DNA of 22,502 nt from a virus: positions 1 to 22,502 of the IMG/VR virus record IMGVR_UViG_3300020183_004012, one strand, 5' to 3'. Below the pieces are notes generated by a model. The model had not been told where the DNA came from and searched no databases. It saw only the letters and a list, made by a program, of their open reading frames with translations. Made by a program: the position numbers and the translations under genes. Below, piece by piece: positions 7,939-19,109 of the stretch (positions are counted from its first letter, which is position 1; every line of letters starts with the position of its first letter).

Positions 7939-8211
7939 TCAGACAGTCTTGGCGACGCGCAGAACCGCCCGGCGGCGAAGCTGCAACTCCTTGATCTGCT
8001 CCTCCAGCTCGGCCTGGACAATATCGGGTTCGCGCCCTTCCAGAGCCTCGACCCCGAGTGCCAGAACCGAGTAGCGGGTCTCCAACTTTTCGATCTTGGC
8101 CACAAGGCGGGCACGCTGGCGCTCGACCTTGGCGTCAAACGCCGCCAGATGGTCCTTGTAGTCAAGCAGTAGCTGGGCAAACGACCGCCGGATACGCTTC
8201 TTTTCCGTCAT
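7939..8211 (-). CDS. Coiled-coil hypothetical protein, 90 aa
   Basis: The protein is almost entirely helical and highly charged. Leu, Ile and Val spacing in LLLDYKDHLAAFDAKVERQ and in VQAELEEQIKELQLRRRAV suggests coiled coils separated by a short segment. No enzymatic motif is seen. The ATG has a good AGGAGG site about six bases upstream. It is the first gene after a promoter at 8230-8258 and precedes the DNA polymerase by about 86 bases, a gap that contains the UUCG hairpin. It may be a small replication accessory or scaffold protein, but only the position suggests that. Confidence 0.75.
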   Translation of the reverse strand: MTEKKRIRRSFAQLLLDYKDHLAAFDAKVERQRARLVAKIEKLETRYSVLALGVEALEGREPDIVQAELEEQIKELQLRRRAVLRVAKTV

Positions 8212-8229: not shown

Positions 8230-8258
8230 ATCTTAGTTAAGTATCTATTGCTGGTCAA
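8230..8258 (-). promoter_or_regulatory. Probable sigma70-type promoter before the coiled-coil and polymerase genes
   Basis: Leftward TTGACC (8253-8258) and TAAGAT (8230-8235) are 17 bases apart. The -35 box lies in the last codons of the SF2 helicase. The predicted start falls right at the AGGAGG site, giving a very short leader, which lowers confidence. Confidence 0.45.
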
Positions 8259-9633
8259 GCGGCACTTGGATGGTTTGCGACCGAAACAATGCCTCGGTCT
8301 GGTAGATTTTGTTTCGAGCGTAGAATTGCCGCTTGAACACGGGATGCTCGTCCACGATGTCAGCAACATAGGCGCTGCTCTTGCCCGGCGCTGGTCGGAT
8401 AACCCTGCCGATGCGCTGTAGAGCCCTTGTGGACGACGCCCCGGCACCTGCCAGTATCAAAGCGTCTGCCGCCGGAATGTCCACACCTTCATCGCAAAGG
8501 CTCGTTCCGATCAAGCACTGTACAGCACCACTGCGGAAACGGTCGAAGGCACCGGCACGGTCAGCCACGCTGTCCGAGCCTTCGACGAATACGCTGCCAG
8601 GTATCAGCGCGGACAAGGCCTCGCCGTGTTCGATATGCTTGACCAGAACCAGCAACCGCCGACCCAGCCGCAACTGCTCTTTGGCCAGCCGGGTGACAAG
8701 CCGTAGCCGGGCTGGGTCTCGCACCACGATGTCCTGATAGGCCTTGGCGTAGCCTAAGGTCGTTGCGGCCTTGCGCGTCCGCAGCTCGGGCGCAATCTGC
8801 CGCCTATAGATATGAATGTCAGGGGCCACGAGATAACCCTGCTGCACGAGGTCGCTGGCCGTCACCCTGTAGCGCACGGGGCCGCAGGCGGCCTCGATGA
8901 GCAGGTCGTGACCATCGTCCCGCCACGGGGATGCAGACAGGCCGACGACCAGCGGGCAGTCGGCCATCTTGCCGCGAACCGTGTACAGGGTCGGCGCTGC
9001 AACGTGGTGGCACTCGTCAAAGATAACCAGCTCGACCTGCCGCAAGTAGTCGTCGTGCCTACCCTTGGCCAAAGTCTGGATGGTGGCAACGGTCACAGGC
9101 AGGATGTTGTCCTTGCCGTCGCCTATCTGCCCGACCTCGATGTTCAAGAACTTCCGAAAGGCGTCGTGCGCCTGCTTCATCAAGTCCTTTGTATGCACCA
9201 CGAACAGCGTTCGCACGCGCATCGTCTGGATTAGCTTGGCCGCCATAGCCGTCTTGCCGGCGCCCGTTGCGGCTTGCAGGATGCCACCAGGTCGTGCGGC
9301 ATTCAACAGCGACATGATGGCGCTGGCTTGATAGGTACGAATGGGAAACGTGGACGCCTCGAATTGACCGCGCTGTAGCTTCGGGCGCGCTTCGGTACGC
9401 ACAAGCTGTATCCCCGTGGACGCCAGCGTAGGCTCGACACGCTCAAGCAGCCCTGTGGGGAACTGCCAAGTCCGATTGCCGATGTATTTCAGCAGGTACA
9501 TGAAGGGTCCGCTGTTCGTCGGCTGGTAGGTCAGCACGTTGTTTAGGGCCGTGATGAGCGGGTGCATGGCCGTAGCGCCAGGCTCCAGCGGACCAATCGT
9601 GGTCCACAGGGGTTCGATGCGAAGGTTGTACAT
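8245..9633 (-). CDS. SF2 DEAD/DEAH-type DNA helicase, 462 aa
   Basis: Superfamily 2 motifs are clear. AATGAGKTAMAA (Walker A, about residues 121-132), VIFDECHHVAAP (DECH box) and VGLSASPWRDD (motif III) form the first RecA-like lobe. IGTSLCDEGVDIPAAD (motif V) and ALQRIGRVIRP (motif VI) form the second. The layout resembles phage UvsW and bacterial RadD/SSL2-like helicases that remodel forks and recombination intermediates. The start is the ATG at 9633, preceded by AAGGA. The same frame stays open for 83 more codons upstream, but that extension is low-complexity and crosses the structured RNA region, so I excluded it. The gene sits between an AT-hook protein and the polymerase. Confidence 0.9.
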   Translation of the reverse strand: MYNLRIEPLWTTIGPLEPGATAMHPLITALNNVLTYQPTNSGPFMYLLKYIGNRTWQFPTGLLERVEPTLASTGIQLVRTEARPKLQRGQFEASTFPIRTYQASAIMSLLNAARPGGILQAATGAGKTAMAAKLIQTMRVRTLFVVHTKDLMKQAHDAFRKFLNIEVGQIGDGKDNILPVTVATIQTLAKGRHDDYLRQVELVIFDECHHVAAPTLYTVRGKMADCPLVVGLSASPWRDDGHDLLIEAACGPVRYRVTASDLVQQGYLVAPDIHIYRRQIAPELRTRKAATTLGYAKAYQDIVVRDPARLRLVTRLAKEQLRLGRRLLVLVKHIEHGEALSALIPGSVFVEGSDSVADRAGAFDRFRSGAVQCLIGTSLCDEGVDIPAADALILAGAGASSTRALQRIGRVIRPAPGKSSAYVADIVDEHPVFKRQFYARNKIYQTEALFRSQTIQVPLDQQ

Positions 9634-9641
9634 GGAATTCC

Positions 9642-9669
9642 TTGACGTAGTTAATGATTCGGTTATACT
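9642..9669 (+). promoter_or_regulatory. Plus-strand promoter for a candidate structured RNA
   Basis: TTGACG (9642-9647) and TATACT (9664-9669) are 16 bases apart on the plus strand, opposite to all neighbouring genes. Transcription would start near 9676 and run away from the helicase ATG into a region rich in stable hairpins. Confidence 0.5.
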
Positions 9670-9675
9670 AAGTGA

Positions 9676-9950
9676 GTCGAGCGCGGCGCCCCACACCGTT
9701 CGCGTCTCGCCCGACCCGCTCCTAGCGGAGGCTTCGGTTTCCGTTCCGGGTCGAGACATCTTTCTTACTGGGAAGCTGTCTGCCTTGTTCGCCCGAGGCG
9801 GCTTCGACACCGCAAGGCGGGGACGACCTTCATCGGTTGTCCCCGCCTCTGCCGTAAGTGCGGGCGGACGGTCGCTGTACATCGGCAGGAAACTTGCCTA
9901 CGCCTGACGACCGCCACCTTGCGCCTTTACTCCCAGGCTACACGAGGCGC
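9676..9950 (+). ncRNA. Candidate structured non-coding RNA, plus strand
   Basis: This gap between helicase and AT-hook genes holds no convincing protein but many hairpins. The arms 9816-9828 and 9835-9847 form a 13-bp stem. A seven-bp stem with a UUCG loop follows the pattern CGGAGGC-UUCG-GUUUCCG. GTCTCG and CGAGAC close a larger domain around it. GGCAGG-AAA-CUUGCC (9884-9898) is enclosed by CGGTCG/CGACCG (9869-9874 with 9908-9913). GCGCCT/AGGCGC (9921-9926 with 9945-9950) closes the end. All four wobble pairs in the three main stems are G-U on the plus strand and would be A-C mismatches on the minus strand. That and the plus-strand promoter indicate a rightward RNA. The 3' end is uncertain, as no U-tract is seen, and the class is not recognised. 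Confidence 0.45.
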
Positions 9951-9960
9951 ACCCGCTCAA

Positions 9961-11013
9961 TCAGTCGATCATGAGTGCCCTGCGGACCATTCCGACAACC
10001 TGCGAGAGCAGGAACTCGGGGTTCTCCTCAGCGCCCAATACCATGAGCAGGTTTGCAGCCAACTCCACGGCGACCGGGGATGGTGCAAAGAACACCGCAT
10101 CGGACTTGGTGACACGAGCCTGCACTTCCTCGGTATCGGGCTTCAGGTACTCGCTGAAATGCCGACCCTCGTGGGCAACGGGCGGCAGGTTGTCCAGAGC
10201 CGCCGCAAGCACGGGCTCCTCGACAACCCGGACGGCGGGCTGCTGGATCAAGGGCTCGGCAGTTTCAGCCGCCTTGTTCTTGCTTCCAGGCGGACGGCCA
10301 CGCTTCTTCGGTGCAGCCGGCTCAGGGCCGGACAGCGGCTGCTTCACGTCAGGATGGATGAAGATGGCAGGCTTGGATTCCTGCGGCGGAACAACGGGCT
10401 GGCCCATCCGCTTCAGGTGTTCGGCCACGGTGGTGCCGATCTCGTCTTCGGTCGATGGGTCTTCCTTCTGGACTTCGGTCAGCAGCATCAGCATCTGCGT
10501 CACGTTCACGTCCGACCAATGAGCGTGAGGGCGAACCTTTGCCGCACGCATCAAATCGTCCAAGAATTCGGTATCGAACTCGCTATGTTCGTTGGCATAG
10601 GCCAAGAACAACTCCTTGGCCGTATCCGAATCAGGTGCCACCCGATAGAACGCCTCGTACAGCGGAGCGTCCACGTCGAACCCGTCCAACTGGAACTCGC
10701 CTCGAATCTCGATCGGCAGATCAGGATTGATCGGGGCAGGCGTAGCAGCTACAGGTTCCGCCACTTCCGGGGCAGCAGCAGGCAGGTCGGCCGCCAGACG
10801 GAAATGCAGGTAGGGCGCAAAGAACCCCTTACCGCCGCCGACGGGGGAAACGGCAATCACGCACGTTCCGCCGAGGTTGTTGCAGCTCTTTATGACCCAC
10901 TCGGACCCTGCCTTGTTGGTCATGTAGTCCTTGGTCAATTGGACTTTTCCGCCGAGGTTAGCCTTGACCAGGGTCGTAGCCTCGGATGCTGTCATTTCGG
11001 ACAACTCAATCAT
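9961..11013 (-). CDS. AT-hook-containing hypothetical protein, 350 aa
   Basis: The protein has a compact N-terminal domain (residues 1-75) with a possible nucleotide- or metal-binding loop, GTCVIAVSPVGGGKG. A Pro/Ala linker follows, then a helical middle (about 110-205). A basic AT-hook, KKRGRPPGSKNK (about 236-247), would insert into the minor groove of AT-rich DNA. The C-terminus is helical and hydrophobic (VAVELAANLLMVLG). The ATG has AAGGA about nine bases upstream. It lies between the Rad52-like gene and the helicase, consistent with a DNA-bound recombination or replication accessory factor. Outside the AT-hook I recognise no family. A plus-strand RNA may converge on its 3' end. Confidence 0.75.
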   Translation of the reverse strand: MIELSEMTASEATTLVKANLGGKVQLTKDYMTNKAGSEWVIKSCNNLGGTCVIAVSPVGGGKGFFAPYLHFRLAADLPAAAPEVAEPVAATPAPINPDLPIEIRGEFQLDGFDVDAPLYEAFYRVAPDSDTAKELFLAYANEHSEFDTEFLDDLMRAAKVRPHAHWSDVNVTQMLMLLTEVQKEDPSTEDEIGTTVAEHLKRMGQPVVPPQESKPAIFIHPDVKQPLSGPEPAAPKKRGRPPGSKNKAAETAEPLIQQPAVRVVEEPVLAAALDNLPPVAHEGRHFSEYLKPDTEEVQARVTKSDAVFFAPSPVAVELAANLLMVLGAEENPEFLLSQVVGMVRRALMID

Positions 11014-12251: not shown

Positions 12252-12485
12252 TCAGCAGCAGCAGCAGTATCGGGGCTGGCGGCACAGGTCACAAGGGTAG
12301 CCCTTGGCGGGGTCACAGACCAGGCAGACGGCGCCGTACCAAGGCATGCCGCGCCGTGTCGGGTGCCCCTTGTCGCACGTCTCGACGGGGCGGCCGGCGG
12401 GTGTCGGGGCCAGGCCGGCGGGTGTCGGGGCCAGGCCGCCGGCCCCCGTCAGGGGGCCAGCAGAGGGGCTCAAGCTAGCGTCCAT
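12252..12485 (-). CDS. Cys-rich zinc-binding-like protein, 77 aa
   Basis: The first half is low-complexity Pro/Ala/Gly and contains a perfect heptapeptide repeat, LAPTPAG twice, encoded by a 21-bp tandem duplication. The second half carries TCDKGH, AVCLVCDP, YPCDLC and a run of four Cys at the very end. The two C-x2-C pairs plus C and H suggest a double zinc-ribbon or zinc-knuckle. The ATG lies two bases after the stop of the membrane protein gene. No strong ribosome site is visible, so coupling is likely. The unusually high GC and the duplication make the N-terminal half look recently altered. Function unknown. Confidence 0.5.
   Translation of the reverse strand: MDASLSPSAGPLTGAGGLAPTPAGLAPTPAGRPVETCDKGHPTRRGMPWYGAVCLVCDPAKGYPCDLCRQPRYCCCC
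12392..12433. repeat. 21-bp perfect tandem duplication
   Basis: Two identical 21-bp units (12392-12412 and 12413-12433) each contain GCCGGCGGGTGTCGGG. The same 16 bases occur once more at 14515-14530, about 2.1 kb away in the same orientation. The tandem pair is in frame and encodes the repeated LAPTPAG. Confidence 0.9.
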
Positions 12486-12487
12486 AC

Positions 12488-12667
12488 TTAATCCAACCCA
12501 TAGCAGTCTGACGGGTAAATCACGACGGGCTCTGACAGCCCGTTCCACAGGGCCAGAACGGCCGTAGCCAAAACCAGGATCACAATCAGGCGACGCTCCC
12601 GGCCGGCCCGGGCTAGTTCAGCCCGGGCGCGGAGGGTAGCGATACGGCCCATGGGCGCGCTTGTCAT
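12488..12667 (-). CDS. Single-pass membrane protein, 59 aa
   Basis: The N-terminal 27 residues are basic (GRIATLRARAELARAGRERR). A hydrophobic helix, LIVILVLATAVLALW, follows, then a short polar tail with one Cys. The positive-inside rule predicts a cytoplasmic N-terminus. The ATG at 12667 overlaps the TGA of the upstream gene (ATGA) and follows AGGTGA. The frame is open further upstream, but that part overlaps the neighbour and is not needed. It resembles many small phage inner membrane proteins of unknown role. Without holin-like pairing or an endolysin nearby, a lysis function is not supported. Confidence 0.65.
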   Translation of the reverse strand: MTSAPMGRIATLRARAELARAGRERRLIVILVLATAVLALWNGLSEPVVIYPSDCYGLD

Positions 12668-12969
12668 GGCGTCACCTGGTGGCGCTGTGCCTCGAACCGC
12701 CGGCCGTCGGCCCAGCAGTGAAGGCGGCGCCACAGGGCGTCATAGGACCGGGCCGGCGACAAGGCGAAAATGTCGGCCGTGTCCCCGTCCGCCGTCGTGA
12801 CTTGGTGGACGGTGTACCCAATGGAGGTCCGGCGTAGGACCAGGGCCCCGATCGTCCACCGGGTTTCCCCGGTGGACGGCTCGAGCCCGGCCGCGGCCGT
12901 GATGCCAAATTCCCGGTTTAGAATGGAGATCAGTGTCTCCACAGCCCGCCGTCCGGCACGGCCGCTCAT
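12664..12969 (-). CDS. Hypothetical protein, 101 aa
   Basis: The chosen ATG at 12969 has a strong GGAGGAG site and overlaps the upstream stop (ATGA). The product starts with a basic helix (SGRAGRRAVETLISILNREFG). A beta-rich body follows (TRWTIGALVLRRTSIGYTVHQVTT, then DGDTADIFALSPARS), and then a Trp-rich helix (SYDALWRRLHCWADGRRF). I do not recognise the family. Similar size, order and coupling link it with the next gene upstream. The sequence is GC-rich like the rest of this block. Confidence 0.7.
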   Translation of the reverse strand: MSGRAGRRAVETLISILNREFGITAAAGLEPSTGETRWTIGALVLRRTSIGYTVHQVTTADGDTADIFALSPARSYDALWRRLHCWADGRRFEAQRHQVTP

Positions 12970-13277
12970 GGCGTCTCCTCCCGCCGGGCGGCCAGCTCGA
13001 GCCCAAGCCACAGCCCATCCCGGTAGGCGTGCAAGAGATGGTACATTTCCCGCCGGGTGACGCGGCCGGTTATGTCGGAAGTACCGCTCCCGCCGGTCAA
13101 GGACATCCGGCAAAGCCGGGCCCCACCATACGCCCACTCCAGGTGAAAATTGCCGGGGTTAGCCCGCGGGCGGCCGGTCTCGTCCGGCGGGCTGTAGGGG
13201 GTCGCCGGCATGCCGGCGATCGCGTTAATTCTCTCGACTATACGCTCGAGGTCGGCCGCGGTGATACGGTTAGCCAT
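12966..13277 (-). CDS. Conserved-type small phage/plasmid protein, 103 aa
   Basis: The sequence has a helix (ITAADLERIVERINAIAG), then TPYSPPDETGRPRANPGNFHLEWAYGG, a beta strand (ARLCRMSLTGGSG) and a C-terminal helix (REMYHLLHAYRDGLWLGLEL). I recall this pattern from many small unannotated phage and plasmid proteins, with the aromatic N(F/Y)HL and YGG core. Its function is unknown. The ATG at 13277 has AAGGAG eight bases upstream. A promoter at 13315-13343 precedes it, so it probably starts a transcript that continues into the next three genes. Confidence 0.7.
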   Translation of the reverse strand: MANRITAADLERIVERINAIAGMPATPYSPPDETGRPRANPGNFHLEWAYGGARLCRMSLTGGSGTSDITGRVTRREMYHLLHAYRDGLWLGLELAARREETP

Positions 13278-13314
13278 GGGGGATCTCCTTCTGATTAGGG
13301 TAAGGCACAACGTC

Positions 13315-13343
13315 ATAATAACACCTAAGCGCCCGGCGGGCAA
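13315..13343 (-). promoter_or_regulatory. Probable promoter with a palindromic spacer
   Basis: Leftward TTGCCC (13338-13343) and TATTAT (13315-13320) are 17 bases apart. A perfect palindrome, GCCCGGCGGGC (13331-13341), overlaps the -35 box and could bind a regulator. The element lies across the end of the upstream gene. Confidence 0.45.
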
Positions 13344-13729
13344 TCCCACGCATGATCCCGATCGGGGCAATCGACATGGGAATCGTCGCGGTCCCCGGCG
13401 CCCGTCTCCAGGCAATCCGGGCCGCATGTGCGGCCGGGCCAATGGACGGTCACGTCATAGACGCTCCCGTCCGCGTAGCTGAGCCGGGCCACCTTGGCAT
13501 GAGAGCGATCGCGCGCACGGTGGCCGGTGTCGCTCCAGGCGGCCCGGAGGGCCTGCTCCCCCTGGGGGTTCATCCGGCTCCCGGCGTCGTGGCCGACCCC
13601 GGGGAAAATTCCCCGGACCTGCTCTAGCAGGTCGTCGGGGGACGTGGCGCGGATGGTCCGCCACCCTTGGAGAACCCCGTAGGGCACGGGCCACCCCTTT
13701 ACACCCCACAGGGACATGAAAAGGACCAT
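13325..13729 (-). CDS. Hypothetical protein with Cys-rich C-terminus, 134 aa
   Basis: The N-terminus is hydrophobic and aromatic (MVLFMSLWGVKGWPVPYGVL) but too mixed for a clear membrane helix. The middle contains DDLLEQVRGIFPGVGHDAG and a strand-like VARLSYADGSVYDVTVHW. The C-terminus has RTCGPDCLE, HVDCPDRDHAWDCPPG, a set of Cys, His and Asp residues that could bind a metal. No family is recognised. The ATG overlaps the stop of the clamp-like gene (TGATG), so the two are probably translated together. A second ATG four codons in is an alternative start. Confidence 0.6.
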   Translation of the reverse strand: MVLFMSLWGVKGWPVPYGVLQGWRTIRATSPDDLLEQVRGIFPGVGHDAGSRMNPQGEQALRAAWSDTGHRARDRSHAKVARLSYADGSVYDVTVHWPGRTCGPDCLETGAGDRDDSHVDCPDRDHAWDCPPGA

Positions 13730-14412
13730 CAGCGCCGGACCGTCATGACGATCGTCACGTCCCCGTCGTGATGGCCGGATCGGCCATCACGCGACCCCGG
13801 GGAATTCTCTTCTGTCACGATTGCCTGCTTGGAACCCGGCACGTAGTACCCGCGGGGGATGATGGAAATTGGGGACATCACTCCCCGGACCTCCAGCAGC
13901 GCCTCCGGGCTATCCAAGCTGGCAAGCATACCCAACAGCCATGCCCGGTTTACCCTTGCCAGGGTGGCGGTCTCATCCCCGGCACCGGTGCCGGTGCCGG
14001 TGCCGGTAACGGCGCCGGCGATCGTGACGGCCATGCCGGATGCGACATGAGACAACGTGACCATGCCGGCCGTGGCCGTTATGTCCACATGGTCATCCCC
14101 TTTTGCCCCGGTGGCCGGCTTGAGGCTCTTGAGGGCGTGGCACGCCGCGCCCAAATCGACCTGGACGGTCGCCACCGGCTCATCGTCCGGAATGATTCGA
14201 GACCAGTCTGGGAAAGATTGGCTCCGGCCATGGGTAACTCCCACTGACACCAGCTTGTAGCCGTCTGTCGTAGTGAACCGTAGTTCCTTTTCATCCATGC
14301 GGACTTGCACCGCGCCGCCGAGGTCAGACCAGGCGGACTTTCCACTCGTCCCGGCCTGGAGCCGTTTCAAGACGGCCTCCAGCTCTTGGAGGGGGATGAC
14401 TTTCTCTAACAC
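13729..14412 (-). CDS. Two-domain DnaN-like sliding clamp candidate, 227 aa
   Basis: Several segments resemble the bacterial beta clamp: an initial helix (LQELEAVLKRLQAG), ELRFTTTDGYKLVSVGV (like the clamp TDG-hL strand), SFPDWSRIIPDD (like the FPDYRRVIP signature), VQVDLGAACHALKSLKP, and near the end NRAWLLGMLASLDS followed by VMSPISIIPRG. These match the order of clamp domains 2 and 3. Domain 1 is absent, since full DnaN is about 370 residues. The GTG start at 14412 has AAGGAAA and follows a TTGACA promoter. The open frame extends upstream through that promoter and is rejected. A Gly-Thr repeat lies in the C-terminal half. The family call is inferred from motifs only. Confidence 0.5.
   Translation of the reverse strand: MLEKVIPLQELEAVLKRLQAGTSGKSAWSDLGGAVQVRMDEKELRFTTTDGYKLVSVGVTHGRSQSFPDWSRIIPDDEPVATVQVDLGAACHALKSLKPATGAKGDDHVDITATAGMVTLSHVASGMAVTIAGAVTGTGTGTGAGDETATLARVNRAWLLGMLASLDSPEALLEVRGVMSPISIIPRGYYVPGSKQAIVTEENSPGSRDGRSGHHDGDVTIVMTVRR
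13985..14007. repeat. Hexanucleotide microsatellite in the clamp-like gene
   Basis: CCGGTG repeats in tandem (about four units, the last incomplete) and encodes alternating Gly and Thr. The unit is six bases, so copy-number changes keep the reading frame. Confidence 0.85.
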
Positions 14413-14443
14413 GGCGGCTTTCCTTCCGGTATTAGGTGTGGGG

Positions 14444-14463
14444 TATGTCGTAAATATGACATA
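14444..14463. promoter_or_regulatory. Operator-like inverted repeat at the clamp promoter
   Basis: TATGTC and GACATA are separated by eight bases and overlap the -10 box. The right half-site with its flank, CTATGTCATA on the minus strand (14464-14455), is identical over 10 bases to a site at 15786-15795 in the repeat hub. A perfect palindrome, GGGATATATCCC (14488-14499), lies just upstream of the -35 box. Confidence 0.55.
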
Positions 14464-14481
14464 GGGCATGACGACTGTCAA
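14453..14481 (-). promoter_or_regulatory. Promoter of the clamp-like gene
   Basis: Leftward TTGACA (14476-14481) is a perfect -35 box. CATATT (14453-14458) follows after 17 bases. The predicted start near 14446 gives a short leader before the GTG at 14412. The overlapping inverted repeat suggests repression. Confidence 0.65.
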
Positions 14482-14569
14482 GTGTCGGGGATATATCCCT
14501 CCGGCCGGATGCCCGCCGGCGGGTGTCGGGACGGCCGGCCGGGTTGCCCCAAGCCAGGCGGGCAAAGGA

Positions 14570-14607
14570 AAGCCCTCCCCCGGCCAGCTTGACCGCGGGG
14601 AGGGTTT
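14570..14607 (-). terminator. Rho-independent-type terminator, possibly bidirectional
   Basis: CCCTCCCC and GGGGAGGG form an eight-bp GC stem, extended by A-T pairs on the outside. A short T-run follows on both strands. It stands nine bases after the stop of the 68-aa gene, and separates that transcript from the clamp promoter. Confidence 0.55.
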
Positions 14608-14615
14608 ATGGACGA

Positions 14616-14822
14616 TCAGCAGGCGAGCGCGTAGACGCGCAAGCCCTCGAAGTCTTCGGGCCAGAGGGCAAGGGGATGAGCCTGGTCGACCGCTTGCCAG
14701 TCCTTGGCCGAGAGGTCCGATACAGATATTTGGTTTATTTCGCTCGTGCCGAGAAGCTCCTCGGCGGCCTCCCAGGTTGCGGCCCATGTGGCCGCTGTTC
14801 CGTTCGACATAGTGAATTTCAT
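14616..14822 (-). CDS. Hypothetical protein, 68 aa
   Basis: The ATG at 14822 has a strong GGGAGG site. The product begins MKFTMSNGTAATWAATWEAAEELLG and continues SEINQISVSDLSAKDWQAVDQ, ending EDFEGLRVYALAC. It is acidic, with Trp-rich helices and no Cys cluster or membrane span. I do not recognise it. It is the last gene of a three-gene leftward unit (15574 to 14616) that ends at the terminator at 14570-14607. A longer frame starting upstream is rejected because it overlaps the preceding gene. Confidence 0.65.
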   Translation of the reverse strand: MKFTMSNGTAATWAATWEAAEELLGTSEINQISVSDLSAKDWQAVDQAHPLALWPEDFEGLRVYALAC

Positions 14823-14835
14823 TTTTGCCTCCCTT

Positions 14836-15803: not shown

Positions 15804-15910
15804 CATATCATTAACCTAGTGTATGATATGGCATACCCGCCTGGCTTTCTCATATCATTAACCTAGTGTATGATATGGCATGCCCGCCTGGCTTTCTCAT
15901 ATCATTCACC
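15804..15910. repeat. 47-bp tandem repeats with internal inverted half-sites
   Basis: Two 47-bp units (15804-15850 and 15851-15897) differ at one base. A third starts at 15898 and diverges after CCTAG. Each full unit has CATATCAT, an 11-base centre containing CCTAG, and ATGATATG, an inverted pair. A degenerate earlier copy is recognisable near 15711-15745. This is an operator or iteron array rather than CRISPR. Confidence 0.85.
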
Positions 15911-16097
15911 TAGTTAACCAATTCCCTCGGCCTGGTCCTTCGCCTAGTTAAATATTGCCCGGCCTGGTCCTTCGCCTAGTTAAACTTTCTGAGGCATCTC
16001 TGAGGGCCTAGAGGGGGCCATAGGGTATGGCAGGCCATATCATAAGGGGATGCCCTCGAAGCAGGGCTTCCTCCGCGTCAACTATTCACCTAGTTAA
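15909..16097. repeat. CCTAGTTAA elements and 25-bp direct repeats
   Basis: CCTAGTTAA occurs at 15909-15917, 15943-15951, 15975-15983 and 16089-16097. The two middle ones lie inside 25-bp identical direct repeats (15928-15952 and 15960-15984) with a 32-bp period. The first and last share the longer context ATTCACCTAGTTAAC. They look like iterons. Confidence 0.75.
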
Positions 16098-16427
16098 CTA
16101 ATTTTCTGAAATCAAGCTGTGACGCGGTTTTCAGGCGAAAATGGACGGGCAGCCTCCGGATTTCGCGCGTCTCGTCTCCGCAGTTATTTTCCTTATTGAG
16201 AACCCTTTGCGAACGTGACATTTCATACACAAAATACGGAACACCCTCTAACGCAGTAGCCGTGCGGGTCTCGACGAATTGCGTTCTCCATTCGCCCTCG
16301 TCTGTGCTGTATTAACCGTGTAATGTCTCGCAATCTCGCAAGGCCTCAAACCCGCACCGCTGCTAGAGCCTGGCCATTCTCAAGATCCGTTGCTCCATTT
16401 TTAGGCGTTATTAATGGGCATGGAGTT

Positions 16428-16466
16428 AAAAAGGGGGTCGGGGTGTTGATCCCCCCCCCCCTTTTT
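16428..16466. terminator. Strong bidirectional terminator
   Basis: AAAAAGGGGG and CCCCCTTTTT flank a GC-rich stem and a short loop, so either strand gives a G/C hairpin followed by five U. It insulates the repeat hub from the origin and primase promoter. A second inverted repeat, CTCCAT (16393-16398) with ATGGAG (16420-16425), lies beside it. Confidence 0.7.
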
Positions 16467-16794: not shown

Positions 16795-16855
16795 GTTTTG
16801 GTGCCGACTAGTCCCCAAAACCAAGCCCCGCCAGAGCAGCGAACTCTAGCGGGGC
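16795..16855 (+). promoter_or_regulatory. Two leader hairpins before the primase-helicase gene
   Basis: GTTTTGG (16795-16801) pairs with CCAAAAC (16815-16821). GCCCCGC (16825-16831) pairs with GCGGGGC (16849-16855), and after one mismatch AGAG pairs with CTCT inside. The second hairpin ends close to the AAAGGAG site. No U-run follows either stem, so a role in translation or RNA stability is more likely than termination. Confidence 0.5.
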
Positions 16856-16871
16856 GATAAAGGAGCCATCT

Positions 16872-19109
16872 GTGCCCGACTCCAGAACGATTGTAGTCCA
16901 TCCGTCCGCTCGTGTCAACGCCTTTACGCTTGGCAAGGGCGTTCACACCACTTCAGCGGTCGAGATTCTGCTGCCTTCGGGCGTCTCCCGCGTAGACGCG
17001 ATTCATCAGGTTCTTTGTTCGCAAGAAGCCGCTGTTGAGGGCTGGTGGTCAATGGCCGTATTTGAGAATCGGCGCAGAAGTGCCCGCAGTTGGGTGCTTG
17101 GACACGGGTTTGTCGTTGATTTGGACTACCAGGACGAAAAGAGCGAGCATTCGGCGCCGCCGGATGCCGCTCGTATGGCGATGATGGACGCTGTTTTTGA
17201 GGGCGTCTTCGGTGCCAACCTGTTTCACGAGACGCCTCGGGGCTGCCGCCTGATATTCGTGCTGGATCGGCCCGTTGATAACGTCGATGCGTGGAAGGCG
17301 GCATCAAAGGCCGTCGGCAAGATGGTGGACACGGCGCTTCGCGAGAGGACGTTGGCCCCTGACCAAGCTGGCAGGAACGGATACCAGGTGGATAGCACCG
17401 TGCAGAACGATTGTGCCAAGCTGATTTACCTGCCGAACGCCGTGGTCAAGGGTGTGGCTCGGAACTCGGACGTGTTGCTGCTGGATGATGCGCCTGTCAC
17501 GTTGGACCGTTATTTTCGGGACGACACACTTGCCGACGCAGTGGCGCGGTGGAACGAAGCTCACGTCGCCGAGGCCGATCAATGGCCGACAAGCGGCGGC
17601 GAATGTCCGGCCTGCGGGCACGACAAGTGTTTCGGCAAGGTGCCGGATACGGACTGGCGCTGGGCTTGTTTCAGTGCTTCGCACGGAACGGACGGCGGTA
17701 TCGGCATCCAGCACGAGAATCACTGGTCTGGTGACGTGTTGGACTTCGAGGCCGCCAGAAGGGGCTGTAGCCGTGTTCAGGTGCTGGTGGCGGATGGGTA
17801 CCTGGAATCACGGGCTCAGGGGCGCCCACGGGCCTCTGGGAGGCCTCAGCGTGCGGCAGAGCCGGAGGACGTGAACGAGTTGACCGAAATCGTGAACAAC
17901 GTGGCCCTTGTGGACGGCACGACGACGGTGATTGATACCCGGTCGTTGACGATCGTGCCGAAGGAAGCGTTTTCGATGCGGTATCCCCGGTCGTACCAGC
18001 ACTGGCTGACGCATCCCGAGCGGCGGGTCTTGCGGCTGGACCAGATTCGGTTCTCGCCAGCAGGCGTGCGGGACGGGGAAGTGAACTTGTATCGCGGGCT
18101 GCCTTTGACGCCTTCGCCCCAGATAGCCTGCGAGCGCATCTTGGCGCATGTGTTCCTGATGTGCGGGCAGGATGCGGCGCTCGCTCACGATTTGTTGTGC
18201 TGGCTGGCGTGGCCCTTGCAGCATCCGGGACGACGCGTGAAGTACGCCTATGTCGTGCATGGTGGGCAGGGTACGGGCAAGTCGATGTTCTTCGAGCAGT
18301 TGATCATGAAGATTTACGGCGTCGAACACTCGATCCAGATTGGGCAAAACGAGTTGGAGTCCAAGTACACGGGCTGGTTGAGCAAAAAGCTGTTTGTGGT
18401 GTGCAACGAGGTGTCAACGTTTGCTAACGAGCGCAAAGCTACCAAGAATAAGTTGAAGTCCTTGATTACGGACAACGTGTTTACCATCGAAGAGAAGTTC
18501 ATGCCGATTCGGATGGAAGAAAATCACGCCCAGTTCGTGTTCTTGAGTAACGAGATGCAGCCAGTCGTGCCTGAAAGCGACGACAGGCGGTACGCCATCA
18601 TCGAGTTCGACACCAAGATGCCGCCTTCGTATTACGAAGAACTGGCACAAGAGATAAATGGTGGCGGTGCGGCGTCGTTTTACGACTATCTGCTCAACTA
18701 CGACTTCCGCGGGTGGGACGGGGACAGTGCAAAGCCGCCGATGACGGCCGCAAAGCAGGATTTGGTGTCGATTTCGCGCCTTCCGCAGGAACAGTTCCTG
18801 GCCGAGTGGGTTGCGGGCGAGTTGCCGTTCCCCTTTACGGCGTGTTCGACCAGTGATTTGTGGCATGCTTACCAGTTGTATTGCAAGATGAACGGGTTTG
18901 CAGCGGGCTCAAGGAATCTTTTTGGTCGGTATGTCACCAAGCGCACGACCACAGTGGAAGATCGCATTCGGATGGGCAACCAGACGGTCTGGATTCGGGT
19001 GCCGTTTGGCTTTACGCCGGACCAGAACGAGCGGCTGAAGGCCTTGGGGGCGTTTGCTACGGCCTATGGTGACACTTACGCCAAGTTCATCACCCGAATC
19101 AAGCTGTAG
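16872..19109 (+). CDS. Primase-helicase with SF3-type ATPase, 745 aa
   Basis: The N-terminal part has VVDLDYQD (residues 81-88), compatible with the metal-binding motif of archaeo-eukaryotic-type primases, followed by GCRLIFVLDRP and CAKLIYLPN. A zinc site follows: CPAC (245-248), WACFSASHG (264-272). The C-terminal ATPase has VVHGGQGTGKS (Walker A, about 461-471), LFVVCNE (Walker B, 507-513) and FVFLSNEMQPV (sensor motif). This is the arrangement of phage primase-helicases of the D5/SF3 type. The protein would unwind the origin and lay primers for the family A polymerase. The GTG start has AAAGGAG upstream. It is the first rightward gene and begins just downstream of the probable origin. Confidence 0.88.
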   Translation: MPDSRTIVVHPSARVNAFTLGKGVHTTSAVEILLPSGVSRVDAIHQVLCSQEAAVEGWWSMAVFENRRRSARSWVLGHGFVVDLDYQDEKSEHSAPPDAARMAMMDAVFEGVFGANLFHETPRGCRLIFVLDRPVDNVDAWKAASKAVGKMVDTALRERTLAPDQAGRNGYQVDSTVQNDCAKLIYLPNAVVKGVARNSDVLLLDDAPVTLDRYFRDDTLADAVARWNEAHVAEADQWPTSGGECPACGHDKCFGKVPDTDWRWACFSASHGTDGGIGIQHENHWSGDVLDFEAARRGCSRVQVLVADGYLESRAQGRPRASGRPQRAAEPEDVNELTEIVNNVALVDGTTTVIDTRSLTIVPKEAFSMRYPRSYQHWLTHPERRVLRLDQIRFSPAGVRDGEVNLYRGLPLTPSPQIACERILAHVFLMCGQDAALAHDLLCWLAWPLQHPGRRVKYAYVVHGGQGTGKSMFFEQLIMKIYGVEHSIQIGQNELESKYTGWLSKKLFVVCNEVSTFANERKATKNKLKSLITDNVFTIEEKFMPIRMEENHAQFVFLSNEMQPVVPESDDRRYAIIEFDTKMPPSYYEELAQEINGGGAASFYDYLLNYDFRGWDGDSAKPPMTAAKQDLVSISRLPQEQFLAEWVAGELPFPFTACSTSDLWHAYQLYCKMNGFAAGSRNLFGRYVTKRTTTVEDRIRMGNQTVWIRVPFGFTPDQNERLKALGAFATAYGDTYAKFITRIKL

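Follow-up and report, generated by a model that had tools for sequence, protein, structure and literature searches.

A candidate structured RNA opposite the helicase leader in the replication cluster of an uncultured phage

ColE1 RNA I and R1 CopA are highly structured antisense RNAs that lie opposite the leader of a replication function. Among phages, lambda OOP is a 77-nt RNA that acts in cis and targets the cII mRNA with RNase III, lambda aQ is a cis antisense RNA of ~220 nt, and the cyanophage S-PM2 encodes CfrI, a cis antisense RNA of ~225 nt from an intergenic region (PMC12197685). The phage locus described here has a layout like that of OOP or of RNA I and CopA, but is a member of neither group.

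The stretch of DNA analysed, referred to as the window, is a complete virus record of 22,502 bases. Leftward genes extend from ~15.6 kb to the left end and include methyltransferases, an exonuclease, a DNA polymerase, a helicase and a Rad52-like annealing protein; the genes from 16.9 kb onward, including a primase and a terminase, run rightward. Between the helicase gene and an orphan gene lies a gap of 327 nt (9634-9960), which exceeds all other gene gaps in this part of the leftward cluster, each of them below 90 nt. The following features bear on this gap:

8245-9633, minus strand: superfamily 2 DNA helicase gene (ResIII/DEAD and Helicase_C domain matches)
9633-9643, minus strand: upstream edge of the helicase start codon and Shine-Dalgarno AAGGA (9639-9643), outside the predicted RNA
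9641-9656, plus strand: operator-like site TTGACGTAGTTAA, resembling the repeats TTC[AG]CCTAGTTAA and overlapping the -35 box and spacer
9642-9669, plus strand: sigma-70-type promoter TTGACG-16-TATACT (10/12 match)
9662-9677, minus strand: second operator-like site, inverted, overlapping the -10 box and start site
9676-9857, plus strand: predicted structured RNA of ~182 nt (z -6.1, rank 1/446, low ensemble diversity)
9676-9680, plus strand: 5' half of the closing helix P0, GUCGA, 5 bp (probability 0.94)
9685-9706, plus strand: weak 5' hairpin with C-rich loop CCCACAC (9690-9696), helix probability ~0.6
9712-9753, plus strand: hairpin P1, 7 bp + 9 bp, cUUCGg tetraloop, CUCCU 9719-9723 unpaired, three G-U pairs
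9754-9781, plus strand: hairpin P2, 5 bp + 6 bp, abutting P1, two G-U pairs
9782-9799, plus strand: hairpin P3, 6 bp, loop UUCGCC, abutting P2, one G-U pair
9804-9808, plus strand: 3' half of P0, UCGAC, partner of 9676-9680
9809-9855, plus strand: 3' hairpin P4, loop UUCAUC, with lower extensions and no U-tract, one G-U pair
9857-9960, minus strand: rest of the gap, where folding leans to the minus side (z -2.7 vs -1.8 on the plus strand)
9961-11013, minus strand: orphan protein with an AT-hook-like RGRPPGSK stretch in its translated sequence
15804-16110: divergent control-region repeat array, two 47-nt direct repeats and four TTC[AG]CCTAGTTAA copies

Like OOP, the candidate would be a small RNA with its own promoter, antisense to a phage early mRNA in the replication region; the promoter opposite early and replication genes is present as a sequence match. 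Unlike the 77-nt OOP, the phage RNA would span ~182 nt and at least six helices, no intrinsic terminator that would end a short RNA was found, and it lies opposite a leader and not a coding 3' end, 9676-9857 being entirely intergenic and free of overlap with target coding sequence. No sequence relation between the two was found. With RNA I and CopA it shares a predicted structure antisense to a replication-gene leader, its stem-loops being complementary to the leader upstream of the ribosome-binding site of a replication gene; it differs in its phage origin, its fold, its helicase-leader target, with which pairing is predicted, and its lack of a terminator, and homology to a curated RNA family was not found. 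The host of the studied phage may be cyanobacterial, as for CfrI, but CfrI lies opposite a photosynthesis gene at an unrelated locus. Lambda aQ is opposite the late regulator gene Q and not a replication-gene leader.

Protein comparisons against IMG/VR and INPHARED revealed no close relatives of this phage. The best identity of the helicase was ~34% in IMG/VR and 37% in INPHARED, the polymerase and primase had no relatives in IMG/VR, and the orphan protein (9961-11013) had no PHROG or Pfam match. Relatives of the annealing protein in genomes are cyanobacterial in 12 of 14 cases and the closest matches of the polymerase are Pseudanabaena phages, whereas those of the primase and terminase are mostly phages of proteobacteria; because these relatives point in different directions, a cyanobacterial host is only possible. 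Tandem Rad52-like annealing genes were also seen on a Synechococcaceae MAG contig (L112:3988-4930) that encodes a ParA-like protein and is possibly a plasmid. Elsewhere in the window, 12317-14835 is a high-GC stretch of overlapping leftward ORFs containing other strongly folding segments; the ORF tested there (13729-14787) had no Pfam match.

Coding scores for all six frames of 9634-9960 fell below the 5th percentile of true genes from the same window, which supports an earlier note, made from the DNA sequence, that the gap holds no convincing protein. A gap-encoded protein was therefore rejected, including one from the open minus-strand frame upstream of the helicase, for which 9633 is the better start. 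On the minus strand, 9857-9960 probably belongs to the leftward gene upstream, as its 3' untranslated region. A hammerhead ribozyme was dismissed: CUGACGA and GAAA occur near 9889-9910, but inspection by eye showed that the required stems are absent. An insertion element was likewise rejected, as the inverted ends are imperfect and, like the 13-nt direct repeat (77%), look like chance.

For 9676-9860, the predicted plus-strand fold has an energy of -95.9 kcal/mol (z -6.1, 200 shuffles), vs z -2.6 for the minus strand, a strand energy difference of z ~-2.9 to -3.2. This plus-strand segment was the most over-stable of 446 185-nt segments scanned on both strands, a rank to be read with the facts that the grid was placed so as to include 9676-9860 and that these boundaries were picked after inspecting the sequence. 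The minimum free energy (MFE) structure of plus-strand 9676-9857 has a frequency of 0.09 vs a shuffle median of 0.006 (0.7% of shuffles reach 0.09), with an ensemble diversity of 15 vs 41; the minus-strand ensemble is diffuse and shows no MFE-frequency signal. The earlier note had placed the RNA element at 9642-9950 and had taken an asymmetry of G-U pairs, four wobbles in three stems, as the mark of a rightward RNA. The element holds for 9676-9857 and not beyond, its core ending near 9857. The G-U pairs are indeed present, and more numerous than claimed (seven in P1-P4 and one in the 5' hairpin). The strand asymmetry stands for 9676-9860, but on extension to 9958 the strand preference is gone (plus z -4.3, minus z -5.0, with a strand difference that is exactly average, z 0.0). 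For 9670-9960 the minus-strand fold itself contains 11 G-U pairs, vs 10 in the plus-strand fold, so that G-U counts across the whole gap are circular as a strand argument.

Helices P1-P4 have pair probabilities of at least 0.97; the earlier claim of at least four stable stems thus holds at a pair probability of at least 0.95. No unpaired base separates P1, P2 and P3 from one another, and the P4 stem comprises 14 bp (9815-9828/9835-9848). Formation of P0 depends sharply on the ends of the RNA, its probability being 0.94 for 9676-9857, 0.03 with a start at 9678 and 0.04 with an end at 9900, and a transcript running past ~9900 would therefore lose the closed form. Of the arguments for a real RNA, the best is that the fold boundary coincides with the start predicted from the promoter. 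An intrinsic terminator was not found after P4, where a U-tract is absent, and the next plus-strand terminator-like site (10441-10459) is weak. The earlier note had also proposed two competing folds through pairing of GCCTTG near 9782 with CAAGGC at 9813-9818; these complementary sequences exist, but the switch is energetically disfavoured, and a two-state RNA was rejected because the forced alternative is ~11 kcal/mol worse (-84.1 vs -95.0 kcal/mol).

The promoter proposed earlier, TTGACG-16-TATACT on the plus strand, is confirmed at 9642-9669 as a sequence match stronger than expected by chance: local shuffling of 9634-9676 gave a site of at least 10/12 in 0.5% of trials, and the window contains four such sites vs 0.86 +/- 1.0 in shuffles. 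A -10 box ending at 9669 with a start near 9676 is the sigma-70 placement. The sites at 9641 (plus) and 9677 (minus) are, in that order, the top two off-array matches of the whole window to a matrix built from four control-region repeats, and remain so with a matrix from all six. Taken singly, they score at about the shuffle maximum (11.8 on average); what is notable is that both lie at the promoter, which they flank. The heptamer TAGTTAA occurs seven times in the window vs 0.43 expected, with one copy inside the 9642-9669 promoter and another upstream of the gene at 7939-8211. A promoter-like TTGACC-17-TAAGAT on the minus strand (8230-8258) overlaps TAGTTAA just upstream of that gene.

The control-region repeats are perhaps operators or origin iterons, and the array was not found in IMG/VR. 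Further right, 16428-16466 forms a hairpin (AAAAAGGGGGTCGGGG / CCCCCCCCCCCTTTTT), a possible bidirectional terminator. On the minus strand, 16814-16918 carries a promoter TTGACA-17-TACAAT (11/12) at 16918-16890, followed by a predicted RNA of ~70 nt with a 7-bp hairpin and a 13-bp terminator with a U-rich tail. This predicted RNA lies opposite the Shine-Dalgarno (16860-16865) and start (16872) of the primase gene, and the unit may encode an antisense RNA of the OOP type or be an attenuated leader for the leftward genes.

Searches of Rfam 15 with the gap RNA returned no family at gathering score, consistent with the earlier statement that no known RNA class has this layout; up to E 10, the best match was an unrelated family at E 0.27. 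No tRNA or tmRNA was detected, and both identities were rejected. No homologue of the RNA was found in Rfam, related IMG/VR loci, INPHARED, PLSDB or 386 cyanobacterial genomes, and blastn revealed no homologue of the element. A single-sequence covariance model, which reaches only fairly close relatives, gave no match in 100 loci or in the 386 cyanobacterial genomes; within the window it found itself and a second, minus-strand match (9807-9919) overlapping the palindromic P4. Routes via the helicase, orphan gene, Sak, polymerase, primase and repeats led to distant relatives only (identity up to ~34-37% for the helicase and 48% for Sak), none with the element. Support for the RNA rests on one sequence, because no relative is present in the collections searched.

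For 9676-9857, the reading with the best support is a predicted structured RNA transcribed rightward, given the strand-specific fold, the promoter spacing, the lack of a protein and the lack of an Rfam class, and we put the probability that the segment specifies a real RNA at about 0.6. The hairpins might instead work in the leftward polycistronic mRNA, as an RNase III site or 3'-end stabiliser that would separate the upstream products from the helicase, the plus-strand promoter being incidental. The flanking genes are all leftward, P4 folds nearly equally on either strand, minus-strand 9776-9960 is the second most over-stable segment in the window, and across 9676-9958 the minus strand is as over-stable as the plus. 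We nevertheless regard this explanation as unlikely, as the fold of P1-P3 with the cUUCGg loop is specific to the plus strand (z -3.3 for 9708-9802, vs -0.9 on the minus strand), the minus-strand ensemble of 9676-9857 is diffuse, and the promoter is improbable by chance. Chance itself, in the form of a non-coding, GC-rich remnant that happens to carry one strong hairpin and a promoter, has to contend with the z of -3.3 that P1-P3 keep on the plus strand without P4, with the first rank of the segment in the window, and with the agreement of fold boundary and promoter. The single 14-bp P4 does supply much of the z-score (9805-9856 alone, z -6.7 plus and -5.2 minus), and the absence of homologues leaves one sequence as support; we judge a chance origin to be quite unlikely.

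Equally low odds attach to a trans-acting RNA whose antisense position is incidental, and which would bind a host or phage protein or mRNA as a sponge, decoy or counter-defence factor, with the exposed CUCCU or the C-rich loop as possible contact sites. Pairing alone would not require so elaborate and well-defined a fold, and CUCCU 9719-9723 and CCCACAC 9690-9696 are exposed, but the loops are short and the searches above gave neither an Rfam class nor a homologue. An undescribed phage RNA class, defined by a start-closed multibranch domain and a 3' hairpin and binding a host or phage protein in trans, is doubtful to the same degree; the locus is an interesting candidate and not yet evidence for a new RNA class. 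The strand-specific G-U pairs and the cUUCGg loop are RNA signatures that argue against a DNA element acting through single-strand hairpins as a replication or primosome-assembly site, as does the well-spaced promoter, which would lack an explanation. Such an element would fit the position of the hairpins between helicase and recombination genes, with sites like the control-region repeats close by, and is very unlikely.

The specific reading that we favour, tentatively and at somewhat less than even odds, is a structured antisense RNA of ~180 nt whose target, in cis, is the helicase leader, because of the promoter, the plus-strand fold, the match of P0 to the start, the non-coding gap, the operator-like sites and the candidate antisense unit at the primase start. 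Transcription would initiate from the 9642-9669 promoter and oppose the replication genes on either side. The 5' end of the RNA would pair with UCGAC 9804-9808, enclosing a multibranch domain whose hairpins abut, and the strong 3' hairpin would come next, with the 3' end near 9857. Every base of the predicted RNA is complementary to the leftward mRNA, in the leader that separates the orphan gene from the helicase, and pairing there may recruit double-strand cleavage or impede leftward transcription, which would leave less helicase relative to the upstream products. The predicted RNA stops ~33 nt before the helicase Shine-Dalgarno AAGGA, making duplex cleavage or transcriptional interference likelier than direct occlusion. 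The promoter would probably be under a putative phage regulator that binds the TTC[AG]CCTAGTTAA repeats.

From its layout, control of the helicase or 'AT-hook' mRNA, as the earlier note suggested, is plausible. If real, the RNA would place a structured antisense transcript, whose fold resembles that of no curated family, within the replication cluster of a phage. Taken with the candidate antisense unit at the primase start, it would make this uncultured phage an example of replication genes controlled at the RNA level.
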